Below, one piece after another: positions 41,332-52,108 of a DNA stretch of 64,000 bases. The translations under genes and the position numbers were made by a program. The notes under the pieces are model-generated. The model was not told the origin of the DNA. It did not search any database and worked only from the letters and a program-made list of their open reading frames with translations. Origin of the DNA: Imtechella halotolerans (GTDB lineage: Bacteria > Bacteroidota > Bacteroidia > Flavobacteriales > Flavobacteriaceae). The stretch spans positions 1,955,501-2,019,500 of the forward strand of contig NZ_CP117969.2 of assembly GCF_028743515.2 (NCBI RefSeq). Reading direction: 5' to 3'. The stretch's first letter is position 1, and each line of letters starts with the position of its first letter.

Positions 41332-44300
41332 TTAAAATTTAGCTGAAATCACTTTCTTAATGTAACTTCCCTTTTTAGTACTTATCTTAATAAAGTAAAC
41401 TTGTTCTGCAGCATATTTAAAATCAACTGGCATACTCATCACCTTACCAGGATAAGCCTGTTGATCTTTAACTGTTTTTACAAGTACTCCTCTCATATCA
41501 AATACCTCAATGGTTACATCTGATTTATAGTTAAACTTGTATTGGACATTCAATACATCCTTAAATGGTACTGGATACACATTAAAATCAGCTGAAGCAG
41601 TTTGCTCAGTTGGCATCACAATGACTTCCTCACTAGAATCATCACATTCAATAGAACCACCTTCAAATGATTGACCTCCGTTATCTCCAGAAATTATATC
41701 ATCTCCAGAACAAGCACAAATAACCTCACAAGCAACACCATGTACTATGACATAGAAATCTCCTGTTACATTAATTGGTCCAACGGTATAGGTGTCTACA
41801 TTTCCACCTAAATTAGGACTAAATGGATACTGTCCAGGTGCTATAATAGGATCACCATTTTTGGACATTGGATATGGTTCACATCCAACGTATACATGAG
41901 CTGCTGAAAGGACGAAACCTTCAACCATATCATACATCACTGTTACTTGAGATCCATCATATGAAATAGTTGCTGTACCACTGTAAACACCCTTATTAGT
42001 ATCACAATCAGCAGCACCCGCATATAGACTTAGAACATATTCACCTGGTTCAGTGATATAATTTGTCCAACCCCAACGGCTATTTTTAATTTCAGGCATG
42101 TCAAGGAAGCATGTCGACATTTCATCATCATAATAAGCAAAGACAGTCTCACATTCCATCTGTTCAATTTCTTGAACAATGAAAATCTCTTCTTTAGCCT
42201 CATTAAAACAAGCATCAGTAGCTACAAAAGTGTACTTATAGGTTTTGGTACAATCATCTTCTCCTACTAACTCAGCATACGCATCACTAGTACCTTCACC
42301 ACCACAGTTATCTACCCATGTCGCTGTTAACATTACAGGAACTTCTCCATTACATATATAGTCATCATAAGTTGGTAACGTAATTACTGGAGGAACATCA
42401 TCCTTCAATGTATAGGTGTAGGTCCAGTCATGCTCGAAGCCTGAACAATCTGTATAGGTCCATGTGTACACTACATCTCCCTCACATAATGGAAGATCAC
42501 TAGCGCCTTTAAAGACAGGAGTTATAGGATTGTTACAGTTGTCGGTTACCGCTGGAGGCTCTGGCTGGCTGATCTCACTAGCACATGCTACAGTACTACT
42601 TCCATTGGCAGGCATATTGTCTGCAAAGTCTTGGTAGTCGATTGTATAGGTGTAGGTCCAGTCATGCTCGAAGCCTGAACAATCTGTATAGGTCCATGTG
42701 TACACTACATCTCCCTCACATAATGGAAGATCACTAGCGCCTTTAAAGACAGGAGTTATAGGATTGTTACAGTTATCGGTTACCGCTGGAGGCTCTGGCT
42801 GGCTAATCTCACTAGCACATGCTACAGTACTACTTCCATTGGCAGGCATATTGTCTGCAAAGTCTTGGTAGTCGATTGTATAGGTGTAGGTCCAGTCATG
42901 CTCGAAGCCTGAACAATCTGTATAGGTCCATGTGTACACTACATCTCCCTCACATAATGGAAGATCACTAGCGCCTTTAAAGACAGGAGTTATAGGATTG
43001 TTACAGTTGTCGGATACCGCTGGAGGCTCTGGCTGGCTAATCTCACTAGCACATGCTACAGTACTACTTCCATTGGCAGGCATATTGTCTGCAAAGTCTT
43101 GGTAGTCGATTGTATAGGTGTAGGTCCAGTCATGCTCGAAGCCTGAACAATCTGTATAGGTCCATGTGTACACTACATCTCCCTCACATAATGGAAGATC
43201 ACTAGCGCCTTTAAAGACAGGAGTTATAGGATTGTTACAGTTGTCGGTTACCGCTGGAGGCTCTGGCTGGCTAATCTCACTAGCACATGCTACAGTACTA
43301 CTTCCATTGGCAGGCATATTGTCTGCAAAGTCTTGGTAGTCGATTGTATAGGTGTAAGTCCAGTCATGCTCGAAGCCTGAACAATCTGTATAGGTCCATG
43401 TGTACACCACATCTCCCTCACATAATGGAAGATCACTAGCGCCTTTAAAGACAGGAGTTATAGGATTGTTACAGTTGTCGGTTACCGCTGGAGGCTCTGG
43501 CTGGCTGATCTCACTAGCACATGCTACAGTACTACTTCCATTGGCAGGCATATTGTCTGCAAAGTCTTGGTAGTCGATTGTATAGGTGTAAGTCCAGTCA
43601 TGCTCGAAGCCTGAACAATCTGTATAGGTCCATGTGTACACTACATCTCCCTCACATAATGGAAGATCACTAGCGCCTTTAAAGACAGGAGTTATAGGAT
43701 TGTTACAGTTGTCGGTTACCGCTGGAGGCTCTGGCTGGCTGATCTCACTAGCACATGCTACAGTACTACTTCCATTGGCAGGCATATTGTCTGCAAAGTC
43801 TTGGTAGTCGATTGTATAGGTGTAGGTCCAGTCATGCTCGAAGCCTGAACAATCTGTATAGGTCCATGTGTACACTACATCTCCCTCACATAATGGAAGA
43901 TCACTAGCGCCTTTAAAGACAGGAGTTATAGGATTGTTACAGTTATCGGTTACCGCTGGAGGCTCTGGCTGGCTAATCTCACTAGCACATGCTACAGTAC
44001 TACTTCCATTGGCAGGCATATTGTCTGCAAAGTCTTGGTAGTCGATTGTATAGGTGTAAGTCCAGTCATGCTCGAAGCCTGAACAATCTGTATAGGTCCA
44101 TGTGTACACCACATCTCCCTCACATAATGGAAGATCACTAGCGCCTTTAAAGACAGGAGTTATAGGATTGTTACAGTTGTCGGTTACCGCTGGAGGCTCT
44201 GGCTGGCTAATCTCACTAGCACATGCTACAGTACTACTTCCATTGGCAGGCATATTGTCTGCAAAGTCTTGGTAGTCGATTGTATAGGTGTAAGTCCAGT

Positions 44301-47300
44301 CATGCTCGAAGCCTGAACAATCTGTATAGGTCCATGTGTACACCACATCTCCCTCACATAATGGAAGATCACTAGCGCCTTTAAAGACAGGAGTTATAGG
44401 ATTGTTACAGTTGTCGGTTACCGCTGGAGGCTCTGGCTGGCTGATCTCACTAGCACATGCTACAGTACTACTTCCATTGGCAGGCATATTGTCTGCAAAG
44501 TCTTGGTAGTCGATTGTATAGGTGTAAGTCCAGTCATGCTCGAAGCCTGAACAATCTGTATAGGTCCATGTGTACACTACATCTCCCTCACATAATGGAA
44601 GATCACTAGCGCCTTTAAAGACAGGAGTTATAGGATTGTTACAGTTATCGGTTACCGCTGGAGGCTCTGGCTGGCTAATCTCACTAGCACATGCTACAGT
44701 ACTACTTCCATTGGCAGGCATATTGTCTGCAAAGTCTTGGTAGTCGATTGTATAGGTGTAGGTCCAGTCATGCTCGAAGCCTGAACAATCTGTATAGGTC
44801 CATGTGTACACTACATCTCCCTCACATAATGGAAGATCACTAGCGCCTTTAAAGACAGGAGTTATAGGATTGTTACAGTTGTCGGTTACCGCTGGAGGCT
44901 CTGGCTGGCTGATCTCACTAGCACATGCTACAGTACTACTTCCATTGGCAGGCATATTGTCTGCAAAGTCTTGGTAGTCGATTGTATAGGTGTAGGTCCA
45001 GTCATGCTCGAAGCCTGAACAATCTGTATAGGTCCATGTGTACACTACATCTCCCTCACATAATGGAAGATCACTAGCGCCTTTAAAGACAGGAGTTATA
45101 GGATTGTTACAGTTATCGGTTACCGCTGGAGGCTCTGGCTGGCTGATCTCACTAGCACATGCTACAGTACTACTTCCATTGGCAGGCATATTGTCTGCAA
45201 AGTCTTGGTAGTCGATTGTATAGGTGTAGGTCCAGTCATGCTCGAAGCCTGAACAATCTGTATAGGTCCATGTGTACACTACATCTCCCTCACATAATGG
45301 AAGATCACTAGCGCCTTTAAAGACAGGAGTTATAGGATTGTTACAGTTGTCGGTTACCGCTGGAGGCTCTGGCTGGCTGATCTCACTAGCACATGCTACA
45401 GTACTACTTCCATTGGCAGGCATATTGTCTGCAAAGTCTTGGTAGTCGATTGTATAGGTGTAAGTCCAGTCATGCTCGAAGCCTGAACAATCTGTATAGG
45501 TCCATGTGTACACTACATCTCCCTCACATAATGGAAGATCACTAGCGCCTTTAAAGACAGGAGTTATAGGATTGTTACAGTTATCGGTTACCGCTGGAGG
45601 CTCTGGCTGGCTGATCTCACTAGCACATGCTACAGTACTACTTCCATTGGCAGGCATATTGTCTGCAAAGTCTTGGTAGTCGATTGTATAGGTGTAAGTC
45701 CAGTCATGCTCGAAGCCTGAACAATCTGTATAGGTCCATGTGTACACTACATCTCCCTCACATAATGGAAGATCACTAGCGCCTTTAAAGACAGGAGTTA
45801 TAGGATTGTTACAGTTATCGGTTACCGCTGGAGGCTCTGGCTGGCTAATCTCACTAGCACATGCTACAGTACTACTTCCATTGGCAGGCATATTGTCTGC
45901 AAAGTCTTGGTAGTCGATTGTATAGGTGTAGGTCCAGTCATGCTCGAAGCCTGAACAATCTGTATAGGTCCATGTGTACACTACATCTCCCTCACATAAT
46001 GGAAGATCACTAGCGCCTTTAAAGACAGGAGTTATAGGATTGTTACAGTTGTCGGTTACCGCTGGAGGCTCTGGCTGGCTGATCTCACTAGCACATGCTA
46101 CAGTACTACTTCCATTGGCAGGCATATTGTCTGCAAAGTCTTGGTAGTCGATTGTATAGGTGTAAGTCCAGTCATGGCTATTGCCTCTACAATCCTCATA
46201 GGTCCATGTATAAGAAACATCCCCTTCGCAATCGGGAGTCTGAGAAACTACAGGACCACTAGGAGTAATTGAATTTCCACAAACATCCACAACATTGGCT
46301 GGTGGTGTTGGTTGCTGTAATTCAGATGCACAGGCTATTACTAATGAACCATTTTCAGGAAGTGTAAAATCTCCTTCTTTCATAAAGACCTCTAATGAAC
46401 ATGAAGATTCACAACCATTTTCATTAGCCACCACAAGTGTCAATGTAAATGATAATAAACAATCTTCTCCAACTGTTACAGTTACCGTTTGTTGATCATC
46501 CGCTCCATCTATTGAAGCATTACCTTCTACACTCCATTGATATGAAGCCATACCTACAGGACCAGAATATTGCTTTGAATCTTCTGGACAAGCTTCTAAA
46601 TCACCTGAAATACTACAAACAGGGGAGCCATTAATAACTATAGTATCATCTACTGTACATCCTGGTATACCAGGCACAAATTGAGTTGTAGCTTCAACTT
46701 TGTATACACCACTCTTATCATCTCCAGATATCACAAGTTGATATGAAGTTTCACCAGGAATTTCCACATCATCTTTATACCATTTAAAAGTAAACTTACT
46801 AGGATCATTAGGAACAGTGGTAGCTGTAAGGGTAATATCCCCCTCAGCATTACAAATATCATCTCCCAAGTCAACCTGTCCAAGTGGAATATTTCCAAAA
46901 GGGATAGGCCCTAAGAAATCTTTCAACTCTGCAGTAAAAGAGTCAGAAGAACGTGTTTTAATTACAACATATCCTAAAGCTTTTCCACAAGAAGCTCCTC
47001 CTAGACCACTATTAAATCCAAAGGCATCAGAATTTAATGCAAATTCTGCCAAAGTAGTTTGAGTATACGTATTTGAAATATTACCACCACTACTTATAGT
47101 TCCCCACATAGGAGCTGGCACCATTGGATCAATACCCACAATACCCGTCTCATTAACTTGAGCGTGAAGTACATCTTGTGAATTATTCTTTAACACAATT
47201 TGAGCATATCCAAAATTAGGAGCTAATTTTCCATCTCCATGAAATACGTAAGTGTTGTTTGACATTACAAATTCAAATGGAACATTGGCATAATTACTAA

Positions 47301-48198
47301 TGGCTGCAAAGTCGGTATTCTCATGTACCCATATAAAAATACGGACATCCACTACACTCCCTCCATTAGTATAATTGGTAGAAAAAATAATATCTCCGTA
47401 TTGACTTGTACTTTGGGTAACTGGATCAAAATGCCAGGATGTTCGCCCATCGTCAAGTCCAGAAGATACGAACCCACTACCCAGTCCATTAAGAGTTACC
47501 TCATTTCTTAAAAATTCAAAATCCAGATAGCTAGTCCCATTATCTGCTCTTGTAGATGCTCCAAAGAAAGCCCATAATGCTCCCATTTCTTGCATATCAG
47601 GACGACCAATTCTTAAATGCCCAAACCCATCAATAATATCATTTTTTTGAGGATTACTACCATTGGTCGCTCCCCATGAAACAGGATTATCGAAGTTTTT
47701 ATTACTACCTTGAAAAATAGTGGCATCTTTGTTATTACCGGTCCAATGATTATCCCTGGCAAAAATTGCATCTACCCAAAGTCTCCCATCAACAACACTA
47801 AATTGTGGTACTGACATTGGAAGAAGTCCAGCAGGATTGGCCTGTCCTTGAAAAAGAGCATTTCCTTGTGTTTCATCAATTACACCCAGGCCGGATGCTC
47901 CTTGAAACCAATCATCAGTTCCGAAGGCAGCATCTCCAAAGCTGTTGTAAGTTACAACTCCTGAATGAACATCTGCATCAATTCCAAAATTAATAATCAC
48001 TTTTCCTTTGGAAACATTAAGCTGAGCATAGAGTCCAAAAGAGAACATCACTGCTACCATAAATGTTAGCAGTTTTTTTATCCCGACATATGACGGTTGC
48101 AAAACCCGCCAGGAAGGGTCACACCAGGGATCCGCAGGTTCTTCCACCAAACGATCTTCTGTGTCACCATTTTTTTTGCTTCGTGTAAAATAATTCAT
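41332..48198 (-). CDS. Giant secreted repeat protein with type IX sorting domain
   Basis: The product has 2288 residues from ATG 48198. A polar stretch of about 42 residues precedes the hydrophobic export segment (about 43-57, ending FGLYAQ). About 400 residues of unrecognised N-terminal domain follow, then an Ig/PKD-like section (LGDDICNAEG to YKVEATTQF). One divergent repeat then leads into 16 near-identical 78-residue repeats (DNA 42409-46152) with four cysteines each. An HYR-like domain (DDVPPVITLP) and a unique cysteine-rich region precede a type A sorting domain: YPVPFKDVLNVQY, IEVFDMRGVLVKTV and VYFIKISTKKGSYIKKVI. It should be a surface-bound or released adhesin-like protein, which is inference. 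ATG 48225 would add nine residues. Confidence 0.9.
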   Translation of the reverse strand: MNYFTRSKKNGDTEDRLVEEPADPWCDPSWRVLQPSYVGIKKLLTFMVAVMFSFGLYAQLNVSKGKVIINFGIDADVHSGVVTYNSFGDAAFGTDDWFQGASGLGVIDETQGNALFQGQANPAGLLPMSVPQFSVVDGRLWVDAIFARDNHWTGNNKDATIFQGSNKNFDNPVSWGATNGSNPQKNDIIDGFGHLRIGRPDMQEMGALWAFFGASTRADNGTSYLDFEFLRNEVTLNGLGSGFVSSGLDDGRTSWHFDPVTQSTSQYGDIIFSTNYTNGGSVVDVRIFIWVHENTDFAAISNYANVPFEFVMSNNTYVFHGDGKLAPNFGYAQIVLKNNSQDVLHAQVNETGIVGIDPMVPAPMWGTISSGGNISNTYTQTTLAEFALNSDAFGFNSGLGGASCGKALGYVVIKTRSSDSFTAELKDFLGPIPFGNIPLGQVDLGDDICNAEGDITLTATTVPNDPSKFTFKWYKDDVEIPGETSYQLVISGDDKSGVYKVEATTQFVPGIPGCTVDDTIVINGSPVCSISGDLEACPEDSKQYSGPVGMASYQWSVEGNASIDGADDQQTVTVTVGEDCLLSFTLTLVVANENGCESSCSLEVFMKEGDFTLPENGSLVIACASELQQPTPPANVVDVCGNSITPSGPVVSQTPDCEGDVSYTWTYEDCRGNSHDWTYTYTIDYQDFADNMPANGSSTVACASEISQPEPPAVTDNCNNPITPVFKGASDLPLCEGDVVYTWTYTDCSGFEHDWTYTYTIDYQDFADNMPANGSSTVACASEISQPEPPAVTDNCNNPITPVFKGASDLPLCEGDVVYTWTYTDCSGFEHDWTYTYTIDYQDFADNMPANGSSTVACASEISQPEPPAVTDNCNNPITPVFKGASDLPLCEGDVVYTWTYTDCSGFEHDWTYTYTIDYQDFADNMPANGSSTVACASEISQPEPPAVTDNCNNPITPVFKGASDLPLCEGDVVYTWTYTDCSGFEHDWTYTYTIDYQDFADNMPANGSSTVACASEISQPEPPAVTDNCNNPITPVFKGASDLPLCEGDVVYTWTYTDCSGFEHDWTYTYTIDYQDFADNMPANGSSTVACASEISQPEPPAVTDNCNNPITPVFKGASDLPLCEGDVVYTWTYTDCSGFEHDWTYTYTIDYQDFADNMPANGSSTVACASEISQPEPPAVTDNCNNPITPVFKGASDLPLCEGDVVYTWTYTDCSGFEHDWTYTYTIDYQDFADNMPANGSSTVACASEISQPEPPAVTDNCNNPITPVFKGASDLPLCEGDVVYTWTYTDCSGFEHDWTYTYTIDYQDFADNMPANGSSTVACASEISQPEPPAVTDNCNNPITPVFKGASDLPLCEGDVVYTWTYTDCSGFEHDWTYTYTIDYQDFADNMPANGSSTVACASEISQPEPPAVTDNCNNPITPVFKGASDLPLCEGDVVYTWTYTDCSGFEHDWTYTYTIDYQDFADNMPANGSSTVACASEISQPEPPAVTDNCNNPITPVFKGASDLPLCEGDVVYTWTYTDCSGFEHDWTYTYTIDYQDFADNMPANGSSTVACASEISQPEPPAVTDNCNNPITPVFKGASDLPLCEGDVVYTWTYTDCSGFEHDWTYTYTIDYQDFADNMPANGSSTVACASEISQPEPPAVTDNCNNPITPVFKGASDLPLCEGDVVYTWTYTDCSGFEHDWTYTYTIDYQDFADNMPANGSSTVACASEISQPEPPAVSDNCNNPITPVFKGASDLPLCEGDVVYTWTYTDCSGFEHDWTYTYTIDYQDFADNMPANGSSTVACASEISQPEPPAVTDNCNNPITPVFKGASDLPLCEGDVVYTWTYTDCSGFEHDWTYTYTIDYQDFADNMPANGSSTVACASEISQPEPPAVTDNCNNPITPVFKGASDLPLCEGDVVYTWTYTDCSGFEHDWTYTYTLKDDVPPVITLPTYDDYICNGEVPVMLTATWVDNCGGEGTSDAYAELVGEDDCTKTYKYTFVATDACFNEAKEEIFIVQEIEQMECETVFAYYDDEMSTCFLDMPEIKNSRWGWTNYITEPGEYVLSLYAGAADCDTNKGVYSGTATISYDGSQVTVMYDMVEGFVLSAAHVYVGCEPYPMSKNGDPIIAPGQYPFSPNLGGNVDTYTVGPINVTGDFYVIVHGVACEVICACSGDDIISGDNGGQSFEGGSIECDDSSEEVIVMPTEQTASADFNVYPVPFKDVLNVQYKFNYKSDVTIEVFDMRGVLVKTVKDQQAYPGKVMSMPVDFKYAAEQVYFIKISTKKGSYIKKVISAKF
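42409..46152 (-). repeat. 16 tandem 234-bp coding repeats
   Basis: Sixteen consecutive units of exactly 234 bp (78 codons) lie in frame inside the giant gene. They are almost identical in DNA as well as protein. I found four recurrent synonymous variable sites and one amino-acid change (Thr to Ser, third copy from the low-coordinate end). Conserved words per unit are NMPANGSSTVACASEISQPE, DNCNNPITPVFKGAS, and YTWTYTDCSGFEHDWTYTYT. A divergent seventeenth unit lies at about 46153-46386. Confidence 0.95.
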
Positions 48199-48689
48199 AA
48201 TGATAGTTTTTTGGTTAACTACCATTACATAAGTCTGCTATTAAATAATAAAACAGGGGCAAAACCTAGACCTAAATCATAGGGAAATAATTCTTTGGGC
48301 GAGTATATAATGTGGTTCTTAATTTTTGCTAAAAAGAAAAGGGGAGATGGCTTTTTAACAATAACGATCTAAATAGCTCACAACGAGCGCACTAACAAAC
48401 AATCAAAATTAACACTTTATTAATAAAAATGAGAGTCAGTTTATCGAGGAAAATACCCCTTTCAACGAATTTAATATTCAAGAAACATCTCATTTATAAC
48501 AAGATAAGGCATTAAAATGACTGCAATTCACTAAAATGAGAAAGTTAAATCCCTTTACTAATATAATCCAAGTTTAAACAAATAATTTCCAATTATTAAA
48601 TTGAAAGGCTGTGAGTGTCTCACAGCCTTTGCTAGCTAATTCAAATTTAAAATCAGTAAGATTTTAAGCGGTTTTACATGTTTATCATG
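48199..48689. other. Intergenic region between repeat protein and dsbD
   Basis: About 490 bases lie between the two co-directional genes. They hold the dsbD terminator at 48604-48630 and a possible promoter for the repeat gene on the minus strand at 48260-48268 (TAGGTTTTG, one base longer than the -7 consensus). The rest, roughly 48290-48600, is AT-rich with no gene or structure that I can see. Confidence 0.5.
48604..48630 (-). terminator. Terminator of the SusCD/thioredoxin/dsbD locus
   Basis: A perfect 12-bp stem (AAAGGCTGTGAG paired with CTCACAGCCTTT) with a 3-base loop lies 59 bases beyond the dsbD stop. It isolates this locus from the repeat-protein gene. Confidence 0.85.
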
Positions 48690-50666
48690 TTATTTAAATT
48701 GGGAGATTCCTTCTTGTAACCAGTTATGGTAGGCCTCCACATCTGGGGTATAGCCTACGGGCGTATTCAGATTCTCCTCCTGATGGTCCATAAGAACATA
48801 AAAAGGTTGAGAATTGGTCTGATATCGCAGCGTCTGTAGCTCACTCCACTTCTGACCTATATACTTCAACTTCTTACCAGGGCGAAGCTTCGAGTCTACC
48901 ACTTCATCCGCCTCTAAAGCTCGCTTGTCGTCTACATACAATGAGATTAGCACCACTTCATTCTTTAGAATGCTCAGTACCTCAGGCTTTACCCATACAT
49001 GCTGCTCCATCTTGCGACAGTTCACACAGGCATGGCCGGTAAAGTCTAGCATCACTGGTTTGCCTACTTCCTTGGCATAGGCTAGTCCTTTGTCATAATC
49101 GGTAAAGGCGACGATATTATGTGGGGCCAGTAGATGAGCTCCCTCTGGTAAGTTCTCTCCGCTTACATCAACACCGCCACTACCTAGTTGGGTATACCCC
49201 ACTCCATAAGGGGATTCACTATAGTGCTGTGGGGGTGGAAAGGCACTGATAAGGTTTAATGGGGCGCCCCAAAGGCCAGGGATCATATAGATGGTAAAGG
49301 ATAGTACTAAAAGGCCTAGACCTAGTCGTCCCACAGAGATATGACTCACAGGGGAATCATGGGGTAACTGAAGCTTCCCAAATAGGTAAAAGGCCAGGGT
49401 CCCAAATATAGCAATCCAGATGGCGATAAATACTTCTCGCTCCAATAGGTGTAACTGTAATACCAAATCGGCATTTGATAAAAACTTAAAGGCTAGGGCT
49501 AGTTCTAAAAAGCCCAGTACTACTTTCACTGTGTTTAACCAGCCTCCTGACTTTGGGAGACTGTTTAACCAGCCGGGGAACATCGCAAATAGCATAAAGG
49601 GTAAGGCTAGGGCCAAAGAGAATCCGAGCATCCCTATGATGGGGGCAATTCCCCCTTTACTGGCTGCCTCTACTAGAAGGGTACCTACAATAGGACCGGT
49701 ACAGGAGAAGGAAACTATGGCTAGAGCCAGGGCCATAAAGACAATCCCTAGTAGCCCGCCTCTGTCGGCCTGACGGTCTACCTTATTGGCCCATGAGTTG
49801 GGTAGCATGATTTCAAAGGCTCCTAAAAAAGAGGCAGCAAAGACCAGCAACAACAAAAAGAACAAAAGGTTAAACCATACATTGGTCGAAAGAGCATTCA
49901 AGGAGTCTGCTCCAAAGATTCCTGTGATTAACGAGCCTAGGAGCACGTAGATCACTATAATGGAGATCCCATACAAAATAGCATTCTTGATCCCTTTAGC
50001 TCTGGTCTTACTTTGCTTGGTGAAAAAGCTAACCGTCATCGGAATCATCGGAAACACACATGGGGTTAAAAGAGCCGCAAAACCAGAGAAAAAAGCGATG
50101 ATAAATATCGACCATAGGCCTCGTTGGGGGGTGGTATTTGAGGTGTCTGAATCAGAGGATATTGATGATTCTTGACCGTCCTTAATACTTGCAACTTCCT
50201 CAGTAGCACTATGATTTTCAGAAATGATGAAATTAACTTCGGTACTATCAAAAATACACTGTTCATCATCACAGGCTTGATATTCTATCTCCGCCAAGAT
50301 AGTGGACACATTTTGATTCAAAAGCCTTATTCTTTGAACAAAACGAGCTTTGTCCTCAAAATAAGTGAGGTTCATTTCAAATACTTTATCATAATCTGTT
50401 ATCGCTTCACTTTCTTCTGTTTCACCTACCAATTCATAATCAGTTCCTGCATTCGAAAAGGTGAATACAGTAGGTAGTGCGCCTCCTTCAGGCGAATGCT
50501 GTGAATACAGATGCCAATGAGGCTCTATTTTGGCATTAAAAATTAGATTGAATTCACTGGAGGATACTTCTTCTACCTCTACTCCCCATTCCACTGGCGT
50601 GACCATCTGAGAATATAAGGTGCCAGAAAAAAATAAAAGTACTCCTAAAAATATTTTTTTAAACAT
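48690..50666 (-). CDS. DsbD-type thiol:disulfide interchange protein
   Basis: This 658-residue protein has a signal peptide ([20 protein letters not shown]) and a periplasmic N-terminal domain (20-175). A CcdA-like membrane domain of about eight helices follows, with cysteines in LLTPCVFPM and [10 protein letters not shown]-terminal thioredoxin domain has CVNC (Cys547, Cys550). It should carry electrons from cytoplasmic thioredoxin to periplasmic partners. ATG 50666 is chosen over the frame start at 50720, which precedes the signal peptide by 18 residues. The part below about 50150 is markedly GC-rich and uses CTA, GCC and GGC codons unlike the 5' part. Confidence 0.87.
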
Positions 50667-50737
50667 ATTGCTCGATACACATGTGTTAACTTTTGTTATC
50701 ATAAAACGAAAGATTTTCACTTTATATAACCATTCAT

Positions 50738-52108
50738 TTACAATTCAAACTCATCAAAAATTGCTTCAAGTTCACCAGAAGAGGGTGTTGGTGAATTAGC
50801 ATCTATAATATTCCCTTTAGGATCAAGAATTATAAACCGAGGAATCCCCTTTATAAGATATGATTTGACAAATGAGGATTCCCAATCACTATCCGCTAAC
50901 AATTGCACACCTCCCAATTCTTTACTCTTAACCATTTCTTTCCATTTATCACGATCTTTATGTCTATCAATTGATATACTCACAAATCGAATATTTTTGC
51001 CATGGTACTTTTCTTCAAGTTTTTTCAAATATGGAATTTCATATCTACATGGACCACACCATGTTGCCCATACATCTATAAAAAGATATGAACCTTCCAA
51101 ATCACTAAGAGATGTTTTACCTCCTAAATAATTTTCATAATTTTCAAAATTTGGTGATGGTGCTCCTTTGGCCACCTTTCGTAAAATTTCATAATCTTCA
51201 GCCACGACTTTCTTATAATGAGCGTTGGTGGCTATTTCTACATACAATTCATAAAAAGCTTCTAAATCATTGGTATAGGTAATTCCATATTTTGCAAAAT
51301 CAAATGCTAAACTATTTTTAATAGTATCATTTCCGTTTTTTAAAATACTTTGCAAGTAGGCTATGTCTTGATCTCTTCCATTTGCTAAAGCAGAACTTTT
51401 AGCAAGATCCCTGTAGTAATCCTCCACAAGGCGTCTATAACTGCTTGAAAACAAAAAATCCATAGCATTATCATATGTGAGCTCTCTTTCCAAAACTTCT
51501 ATTTCCTTGTTCAAGCCTGTAACATTTTTTATCGTATCTCTTTTTTGAAGTCTTTTAAGGTCCAGTAAATACCCGTAGCCTATATTACGTTTTTCTAATG
51601 TTTTGAAGGAAGGCAAAAGAGTAGAATTTTGTTCTAAAAATAGCAAGGCTTGTTCTCTTAAAGTTTCCAATTGTATAAGACTAGAATCATTAATTATATT
51701 CATTGCTTCTTCTCTTAACCCCATTTCTGTACGTTGTTTTTGCAGTTTAGCAAAAACATAGGTGTTTTCATTCCCTCCAATTCCTTTATAGGCCAATGTT
51801 TCATTAAATCTTTTAGTATTGAATGAAATATCTAATTCATACCCATTCTCAGTGTACACTCTCCAAAAAAGTTTTCCATAGGATAACAAATAAGAACCCG
51901 GCATTAAATCCAATGTATCTCTAAACTTACCATTAGTATCAACTTTTATAGTATCCCTAAAATGATCACTACCAACTATGGTAAGTAGGGAATCCGTTGG
52001 GTTTATTATAGAACCCGTTAAAATTGTCTTGGGTGCAGGCGTAACATCTTTTTCACATCCCAATAAGAGAGTGAGCACCATCGTGATCGACAGAACTTTT
52101 TTTATCAT
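50738..52108 (-). CDS. TlpA-like thioredoxin lipoprotein
   Basis: This 456-residue lipoprotein (lipobox LLLGC, Cys18) has a C-terminal TlpA/AhpC-TSA thioredoxin domain with WCGPC (Cys351, Cys354) and the cis-proline region GIPRFIILD. The N-terminal 30-120 stretch resembles the DUF4369-type beta domain seen in Bacteroidota TlpA proteins. A helical linker follows. It probably reduces or isomerises disulfides in the periplasm, fed by DsbD. It lies between the second thioredoxin gene and dsbD on the same strand. Confidence 0.88.

Follow-up and report, generated by a model that had tools for sequence, protein, structure and literature searches.

Sixteen homogenised HYR_4C repeats in a protein with a type IX secretion tail from Imtechella halotolerans, and the silent-site GC excess of such arrays

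Periscope Proteins, as characterised in the parts of two papers that serve as our source (PMC8201768, PMC9704523), carry tandem, individually folding domains of more than 50 residues with very high identity at the DNA level. Many such units form the stalk of a secreted protein, and recombination between identical repeats was proposed there as the cause of changes in its length. Fibrillar adhesins, including those of Bacteroidetes, are likewise long multidomain proteins with tandem stalk domains, according to the portion of PMC8286594 considered here. We analysed a stretch of 64,000 nucleotides (positions 1,955,501 to 2,019,500 of contig NZ_CP117969.2, G000:C1:1955501-2019500, hereafter the window) from Imtechella halotolerans, a member of the Flavobacteriaceae. 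A gene on its minus strand encodes a repeat protein of 2297 residues that ends in a sorting domain of the type IX secretion system (T9SS). Its 16 units of 78 residues, with a mean DNA identity of 0.9914, correspond to the long, nearly identical repeats that mark Periscope Proteins in those sources. We consider it likely that this array is the stalk of a T9SS-exported surface protein and that it is homogenised by continuing recombination as one evolving block.

Tandem Repeats Finder placed the array at 42409-46176 with a period of 234, 16.1 copies, 99% matches, 0% indels and a score of 7361; the sole other row that it returned for the window had a score of 58. When 42409-46152 was cut into 16 units, pairwise comparison gave the mean identity stated above and five variable sites. 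Four of these are recurrent, lying in GTGTARGTCC, ACACYACAT, AGTTRTCGG and GGCTRATCTC on the plus strand with allele counts of G9/A7, T13/C3, G10/A6 and G9/A7, respectively, and all four are third-position synonymous changes in the minus-strand frame, as read in 15 full domains. The fifth is a private T-to-A change in copy 3, which replaces Thr by Ser. A preliminary description of this DNA had reported the period and the 16 near-identical copies, the four recurrent synonymous sites, the Thr-to-Ser change as the lone amino-acid difference and the silent haplotypes of copies 1-16 (gtgg, gtaa, gtga, gtga, acgg, atgg, gtaa, acga, acgg, ataa, gtgg, gtag, gtgg, atag, ataa, gtgg). The repeat search and identity values, the per-site table and the translated units bear out these observations, haplotypes included.

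Silent changes make up four of the five variants in the array, compared with 21% expected for single changes in the unit (P 0.0076). A silent excess was found in all nine arrays that could be read among ten tried, with P < 0.05 in six of them. Since silent variants are in excess while the units stay alike, selection at the protein level appears to act during homogenisation of the DNA. The copy count of 16 is taken from the assembly, in which a single contig of 3,113,111 bases makes up the genome. It could be argued that this count or the silent variants reflect in part assembly or base-calling errors: the four recurrent variants are all transitions, short reads cannot bridge the array, and draft assemblies often break at such arrays. 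Among the 29 best matches to the C-terminal block outside the source genome there were 24 draft contigs, the five single-contig records being left out, and the contig ended within 1,100 bp of the block on the array side in 12 of the 24 and on the other side in none; draft genomes of the family thus often lose such genes at contig ends. However, errors would not respect the silent nature of all four recurrent variants, the genome is in one contig and the arrays of other assemblies show the same silent excess. We give this explanation little chance.

The distribution of the silent alleles along the array points to repeated recombination. For four of the six pairs of the four silent sites, all four allelic combinations are present. 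The 16 copies carry nine silent haplotypes that are scattered without positional order; neighbouring copies are as alike as in shuffled arrays (lag 1, 2.13 vs 2.13, P 0.54), and the longest repeated haplotype run is two units (offsets 1 to 13). Arrays were simulated under crossing-over, conversion or both with 400 runs per setting, and runs with 3-6 common sites and 14-18 units were kept. Crossing-over alone yielded at least nine haplotypes in 0 of 23 and about 1% of 72 kept runs; the corresponding figures were 7% of 135 and 22% of 250 for conversion alone, and 2% of 41 and 13% of 109 for both processes. Within the limits of this simple simulation, the haplotypes appear to favour gene conversion, or a mix of the two processes, over crossing-over alone. 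These results agree with the preliminary description, which had proposed repeated recombination rather than a single clean expansion.

The genus Imtechella is represented in this analysis by one genome, the source genome. The C-terminal 356 residues, tail included, were matched in 77 of 397 genomes of the family (source genome counted) at E <= 1e-20, and a search for HYR_4C at E <= 0.001 identified the family in 28 of 60 relatives, 25 of them above its cut-off, and in none of 14 control genomes. Relatives that share the C-terminus have arrays of 2 to 30 units which are uniform within and different between, related genes of different genera varying in both number and kind of unit. One genome (G024) encodes a protein with a C-terminus 43% identical to that of the window protein and an array of 30 HYR_4C units, each 234 bp long, with 99.7% identity among the 29 units compared. 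Four others, G094, G034, G181 and G028, match the window protein clearly in both head and C-terminus; their arrays are 14.0 x 243 bp, 3.0 x 228 bp, 12.6 x 249 bp and 2.0 x 261 bp, respectively, and among them only the unit of G034 matched the window unit (BLASTP, E <= 1e-4). The head match was weak in G358 and G184 (24% and 21%), and in G314 the matches to head and C-terminus fall in separate frames. The source genome itself contains a second HYR_4C array at 373269-375980 (within L039, G000:C1:367000-377500), with 11.1 copies of 228 bp. Ten of its units are 99.6% alike and show 58% protein identity to the window unit; the encoded protein of 2777 residues is of T9SS type B and also holds a 273-bp array, and its gene adjoins a PorP/SprF gene. 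Uniformity within arrays together with difference between them indicates concerted evolution of the array, which these sequences appear to support well.

If the array had expanded recently from a few units, and had neither had time to diverge nor undergone continuing homogenisation, both the high identity and the small number of variable sites would be explained. On the other hand, such an expansion is at odds with silent haplotypes that lack order along the array and with the four-gamete pattern, and the relatives, with their uniform yet mutually different arrays, would call for a fresh expansion in each lineage. We therefore regard a recent expansion as improbable. Two further loci are described here for their own sake. 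An open reading frame of 3823 residues in G024 (L087, G024:C2:943500-957000) combines two distinct homogenised arrays with 99% matches each, one of 10 x 366 bp and the other of 13 x 348 bp. In the one-contig genome G176 (L080, G176:C1:3922000-3928000), a related 249-bp array with 7.1 copies and 98% matches lacks a single open frame; the frame break may be either real or an assembly error.

The predicted protein is ordered as a hydrophobic start, a head, 17 HYR_4C domains (PF23237), a Cys-rich region and a T9SS type A tail. The tail scored 32.7 bits with TIGR04183 (cut-off 23) and 34.6 with PF18962 (cut-off 27), as is required of a type A substrate, and the GldJ and PorV genes, which encode parts of the T9SS, are present in the window. 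The HYR_4C family matched 17 stretches with a total of 1515 bits (cut-off 27), and Cys columns 19, 35, 52 and 65 are invariant across eight aligned unit rows. These four cysteines suggest that each unit may form two disulphides. A model of three units had a mean predicted local distance difference test score (pLDDT) of 88.0 and a predicted TM-score (pTM) of 0.63, with beta strands repeating in each unit, and its Foldseek matches were to bacterial adhesin repeats and cadherins. The best fold match had a Z of 6.5 and none reached Z 8, so only a common immunoglobulin (Ig)-like arrangement can be claimed for HYR_4C units; a search by sequence at E <= 1 found no solved structure for the family. Each unit of 78 residues is accordingly predicted to be a small Ig-like beta domain.

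We propose that the array specifies the stalk of a protein exported by the T9SS to the cell surface and that its near-identical units most likely recombine through gene-conversion-like copying, probably the main route, together with unequal crossing-over. Recombination would spread variants through the array, which would thereby evolve as one block, while selection against amino-acid change would purge most protein-altering variants and leave the remaining variation silent. The same recombination should gain and lose units, so that the length of the stalk should vary, possibly within a strain; that copy number differs between strains and cells and alters the reach of the protein, as the preliminary description suggested, is plausible.

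Several observations weigh against this proposal. The evidence comes from one genome of the genus, as assembled sequence. The preliminary description had spoken of a surface protein, and this stands in outline in that the protein carries a tail for secretion by the T9SS; its stalk and surface roles rest on the family matches and on the three-unit model, with Z below 8. Copies at lag 6 are less alike than in shuffled arrays (P 0.025, uncorrected, eight lags) and those at lag 5 slightly more alike (P 0.09), neither of which was expected or is explained. The split between conversion and crossing-over is weak because there are only five variable sites, and the rates used in the simulation were of our own choosing.

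The codon use of the array bears on a further explanation, in which identity is held not by recombination but by selection at the DNA or RNA level, such as on codon choice or on a recombination-promoting sequence. In the window gene, the GC content of third codon positions (GC3) rises from 0.180 in the N-terminal 624 residues to 0.242 in the diverged first unit and 0.372 in the array; in the C-terminus it is 0.175. For the array, a GC3 of 0.168 is predicted from the codon use of the flanks of the same gene, an expectation that controls for amino-acid content, and 0.234 from that of the ribosomal region (23 open reading frames, not individually verified). The codon use of the array thus differs from both, implying that its silent sites are under some directional force, as selection on the DNA would have it. 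However, the units of relatives that share the head and C-terminus are unrelated, each set being uniform, which one fixed sequence cannot explain, and we consider such selection very improbable as the source of identity. Simple translational optimisation is likewise insufficient, since the ribosomal-region prediction lies below the observed value.

The silent-site GC content was compared across arrays with periods of 150-420 bp that Tandem Repeats Finder detected in repeat-protein loci. This set comprised 57 arrays from 82 of 146 sources (145 loci and the window); the other sources consisted for the most part of neighbourhood stretches and of shorter cuts of genes already covered. The array of L080 (G176) was excluded from this set and from that used for silent variants because it has no open frame throughout. 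The genomes were picked by similarity to the window protein and are thus non-random, and the statistics ignore the tree. Silent GC content was above the expectation from the array's own flanks in 45 of the 57 arrays, and in 28 of 36 when each genome was represented by its array with the most copies (sign test, P 0.0012). Among these 36 genomes the excess increased with copy number (Spearman 0.51, P 0.0016), being +0.145 at six or more copies (19 genomes) vs +0.020 at fewer (17 genomes; P 0.0005), and showed no relation to percent match (Spearman 0.16, P 0.35). In an initial set of 50 arrays, 21 were more than two standard deviations above flank blocks of unit length, none was more than two below, and 18 were above all of their flank blocks; the figures of 21 and 18 both include one duplicate (a cut of L040 in L089), which is absent from the set of 57. 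The silent GC excess that rises with copy number is therefore real in this genome set, and the excess of arrays over the flanks of the same gene, greater with more copies, is the new observation here.

One process that could produce such a pattern is GC-biased gene conversion, which Lassalle et al. proposed for most bacterial species against its earlier exclusion, according to the part of their paper used here (PMC4450053). Among many units, biased conversion might drive silent sites to G/C in proportion to unit number while the flanks are AT-rich, and a rise in GC content where recombination partners are more numerous, as observed, is what it predicts. Other results do not support it. When only HYR_4C was considered (19 genes), GC content showed no significant relation to sibling identity (Spearman 0.24, P 0.32) and no difference between the uniform set of 5 genes and the diverged set of 9. 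At four-fold sites of the 25 arrays with six or more copies, C was up in 23, G was up in 21 and T was down in 23; A was up in 11, with a mean change of -0.024 (P 0.29), so the shift is not strand-symmetric. Across 21 arrays there are 309 silent segregating sites, which are non-independent; the pooled frequency of the G/C allele at them was 0.492 vs 0.548 expected, and for the 13 arrays whose rise exceeds 0.1 it was 0.518 vs 0.568 expected. An excess of G/C alleles is predicted both by biased conversion and by decay after transfer, so allele frequencies do not distinguish the two, and no such excess was seen at these sites. We regard GC-biased conversion as possible though rather unlikely. The GC excess may instead come from repeated transfer from GC-rich donors or from preferential amplification of GC-rich units.

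Among the matches listed in the literature on biased conversion in bacteria, we found none on such arrays. The process is debated in bacteria, and arrays within single genes offer matched comparisons in which gene, expression and place are the same. A silent GC excess that grows with copy number makes GC-biased conversion directly testable, whatever the answer, and the G/C enrichment shared by these arrays could help in testing the influence of recombination on bacterial DNA. In AT-rich Bacteroidota, long self-homogenising arrays might even serve as a natural laboratory for GC-biased conversion, a suggestion we offer tentatively.

The features of the window gene are collected in Table 1. The true start of the open reading frame may be further downstream than the first ATG, ahead of a hydrophobic stretch near residues 50-68. 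No Pfam family was found in the head in a scan of 46354-48225, and a model of the head from five sequences failed (pLDDT 34.1). Pfam recognised no adhesive domain; besides HYR_4C and the T9SS tail, PKD_6, MIF4G_like and FlgM were below cut-off or unplaced. The diverged HYR_4C unit on the amino-terminal side (residues 625-702) equals the consensus at 131 of 234 bases. Within the Cys-rich region, a module around an SRWGWTN motif (about 41701-42180, residues about 2016-2175) had no match in Pfam or NCBIfam. The module recurs, and many of the 77 matching genomes align chiefly over it.

Table 1. Coordinates of the repeat-protein gene and its parts, numbered from the first letter of the window.
Feature	Position	Strand	Basis or remark
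Gene of the 2297-residue repeat protein	41332..48225	-	Open reading frame list (first ATG), translation, families
T9SS type A sorting domain, residues 2216-2293	41347..41580	-	PF18962 E 2.4e-08; TIGR04183 E 5.3e-08
Cys-rich carboxy-terminal region, residues 1942-2175	41701..42402	-	Also present in numerous proteins of the family
Homogenised array, 16 x 234 bp	42409..46152	-	Each unit one 78-residue HYR_4C domain in circular phase; Tandem Repeats Finder, per-site table, identity 0.9914
Edge of homogenisation	46120..46164	-	45-bp stretch that matches the unit consensus exactly and extends into the diverged first unit
Diverged first HYR_4C domain, residues 620-692	46150..46368	-	Pfam best stretch
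Head, residues 69 to about 460	46846..48021	-	Conserved in four relatives (alignment, BLASTP)

The MurF and GldJ genes lie directly past the 3' end of the array gene and the PorV gene further along. Upstream are genes for a DsbD-like protein (48690-50720) and a thioredoxin-like lipoprotein (50738-52108), and a related thioredoxin gene adjoins the array gene in several other genera. The possibility that these encode a dedicated thiol partner for the Cys-rich stalk was rejected for the window on the evidence of the best relative of its thioredoxin, in G138. There, as in the window, SusD is followed by a second thioredoxin and then by the thioredoxin itself, and no match to the ends of the array gene lies in the 11-kb stretch examined, which indicates that the window thioredoxin is part of a SusC/SusD locus. 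In those other genera (L092-L109, L112-L123) a gene for NAD(P)H-hydrate dehydratase comes first and one for a thioredoxin-like lipoprotein second; the array gene is next, in some genera after an aromatic amino acid lyase gene. The thioredoxin remains by the dehydratase without a matched array gene in the stretches fetched from G287, G105, G400, G358 and G176. In the source genome the dehydratase and lyase genes are adjacent, and neither the thioredoxin nor the array was matched in the 11-kb stretch around them; the array gene of this genome has left the conserved dehydratase-thioredoxin place. The DsbD-like gene has a GC3 of 0.405, compared with 0.17-0.27 in 12 other window genes sampled, and two further full-length copies of it, at 82% identity, lie elsewhere in the genome.

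Among described systems, the window protein is a plain member of the HYR_4C domain proteins (PF23237), in its score above the cut-off and in its four cysteines per unit. A description of this type of protein was not found in the literature on HYR or T9SS repeats, as judged by titles and abstract openings, and no word beginning with "Bacteroid" occurs in the main text of PMC8201768 or PMC9704523. In contrast to the fibrillar adhesins of the portion of PMC8286594 considered, it has no recognised known adhesive domain. It is close to Periscope Proteins as those two sources present them, with a different export route: they are anchored by sortase or exported by inverse autotransport, whereas the window protein has the tail of a T9SS substrate. 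Its units, unlike theirs in these sources, each contain four cysteines, and variation in repeat number from strain to strain is a trait of Periscope Proteins, while the window protein is represented here by one genome of its genus. The window protein adds a T9SS-exported, cysteine-rich case to the stalk proteins whose length recombination is believed to alter.

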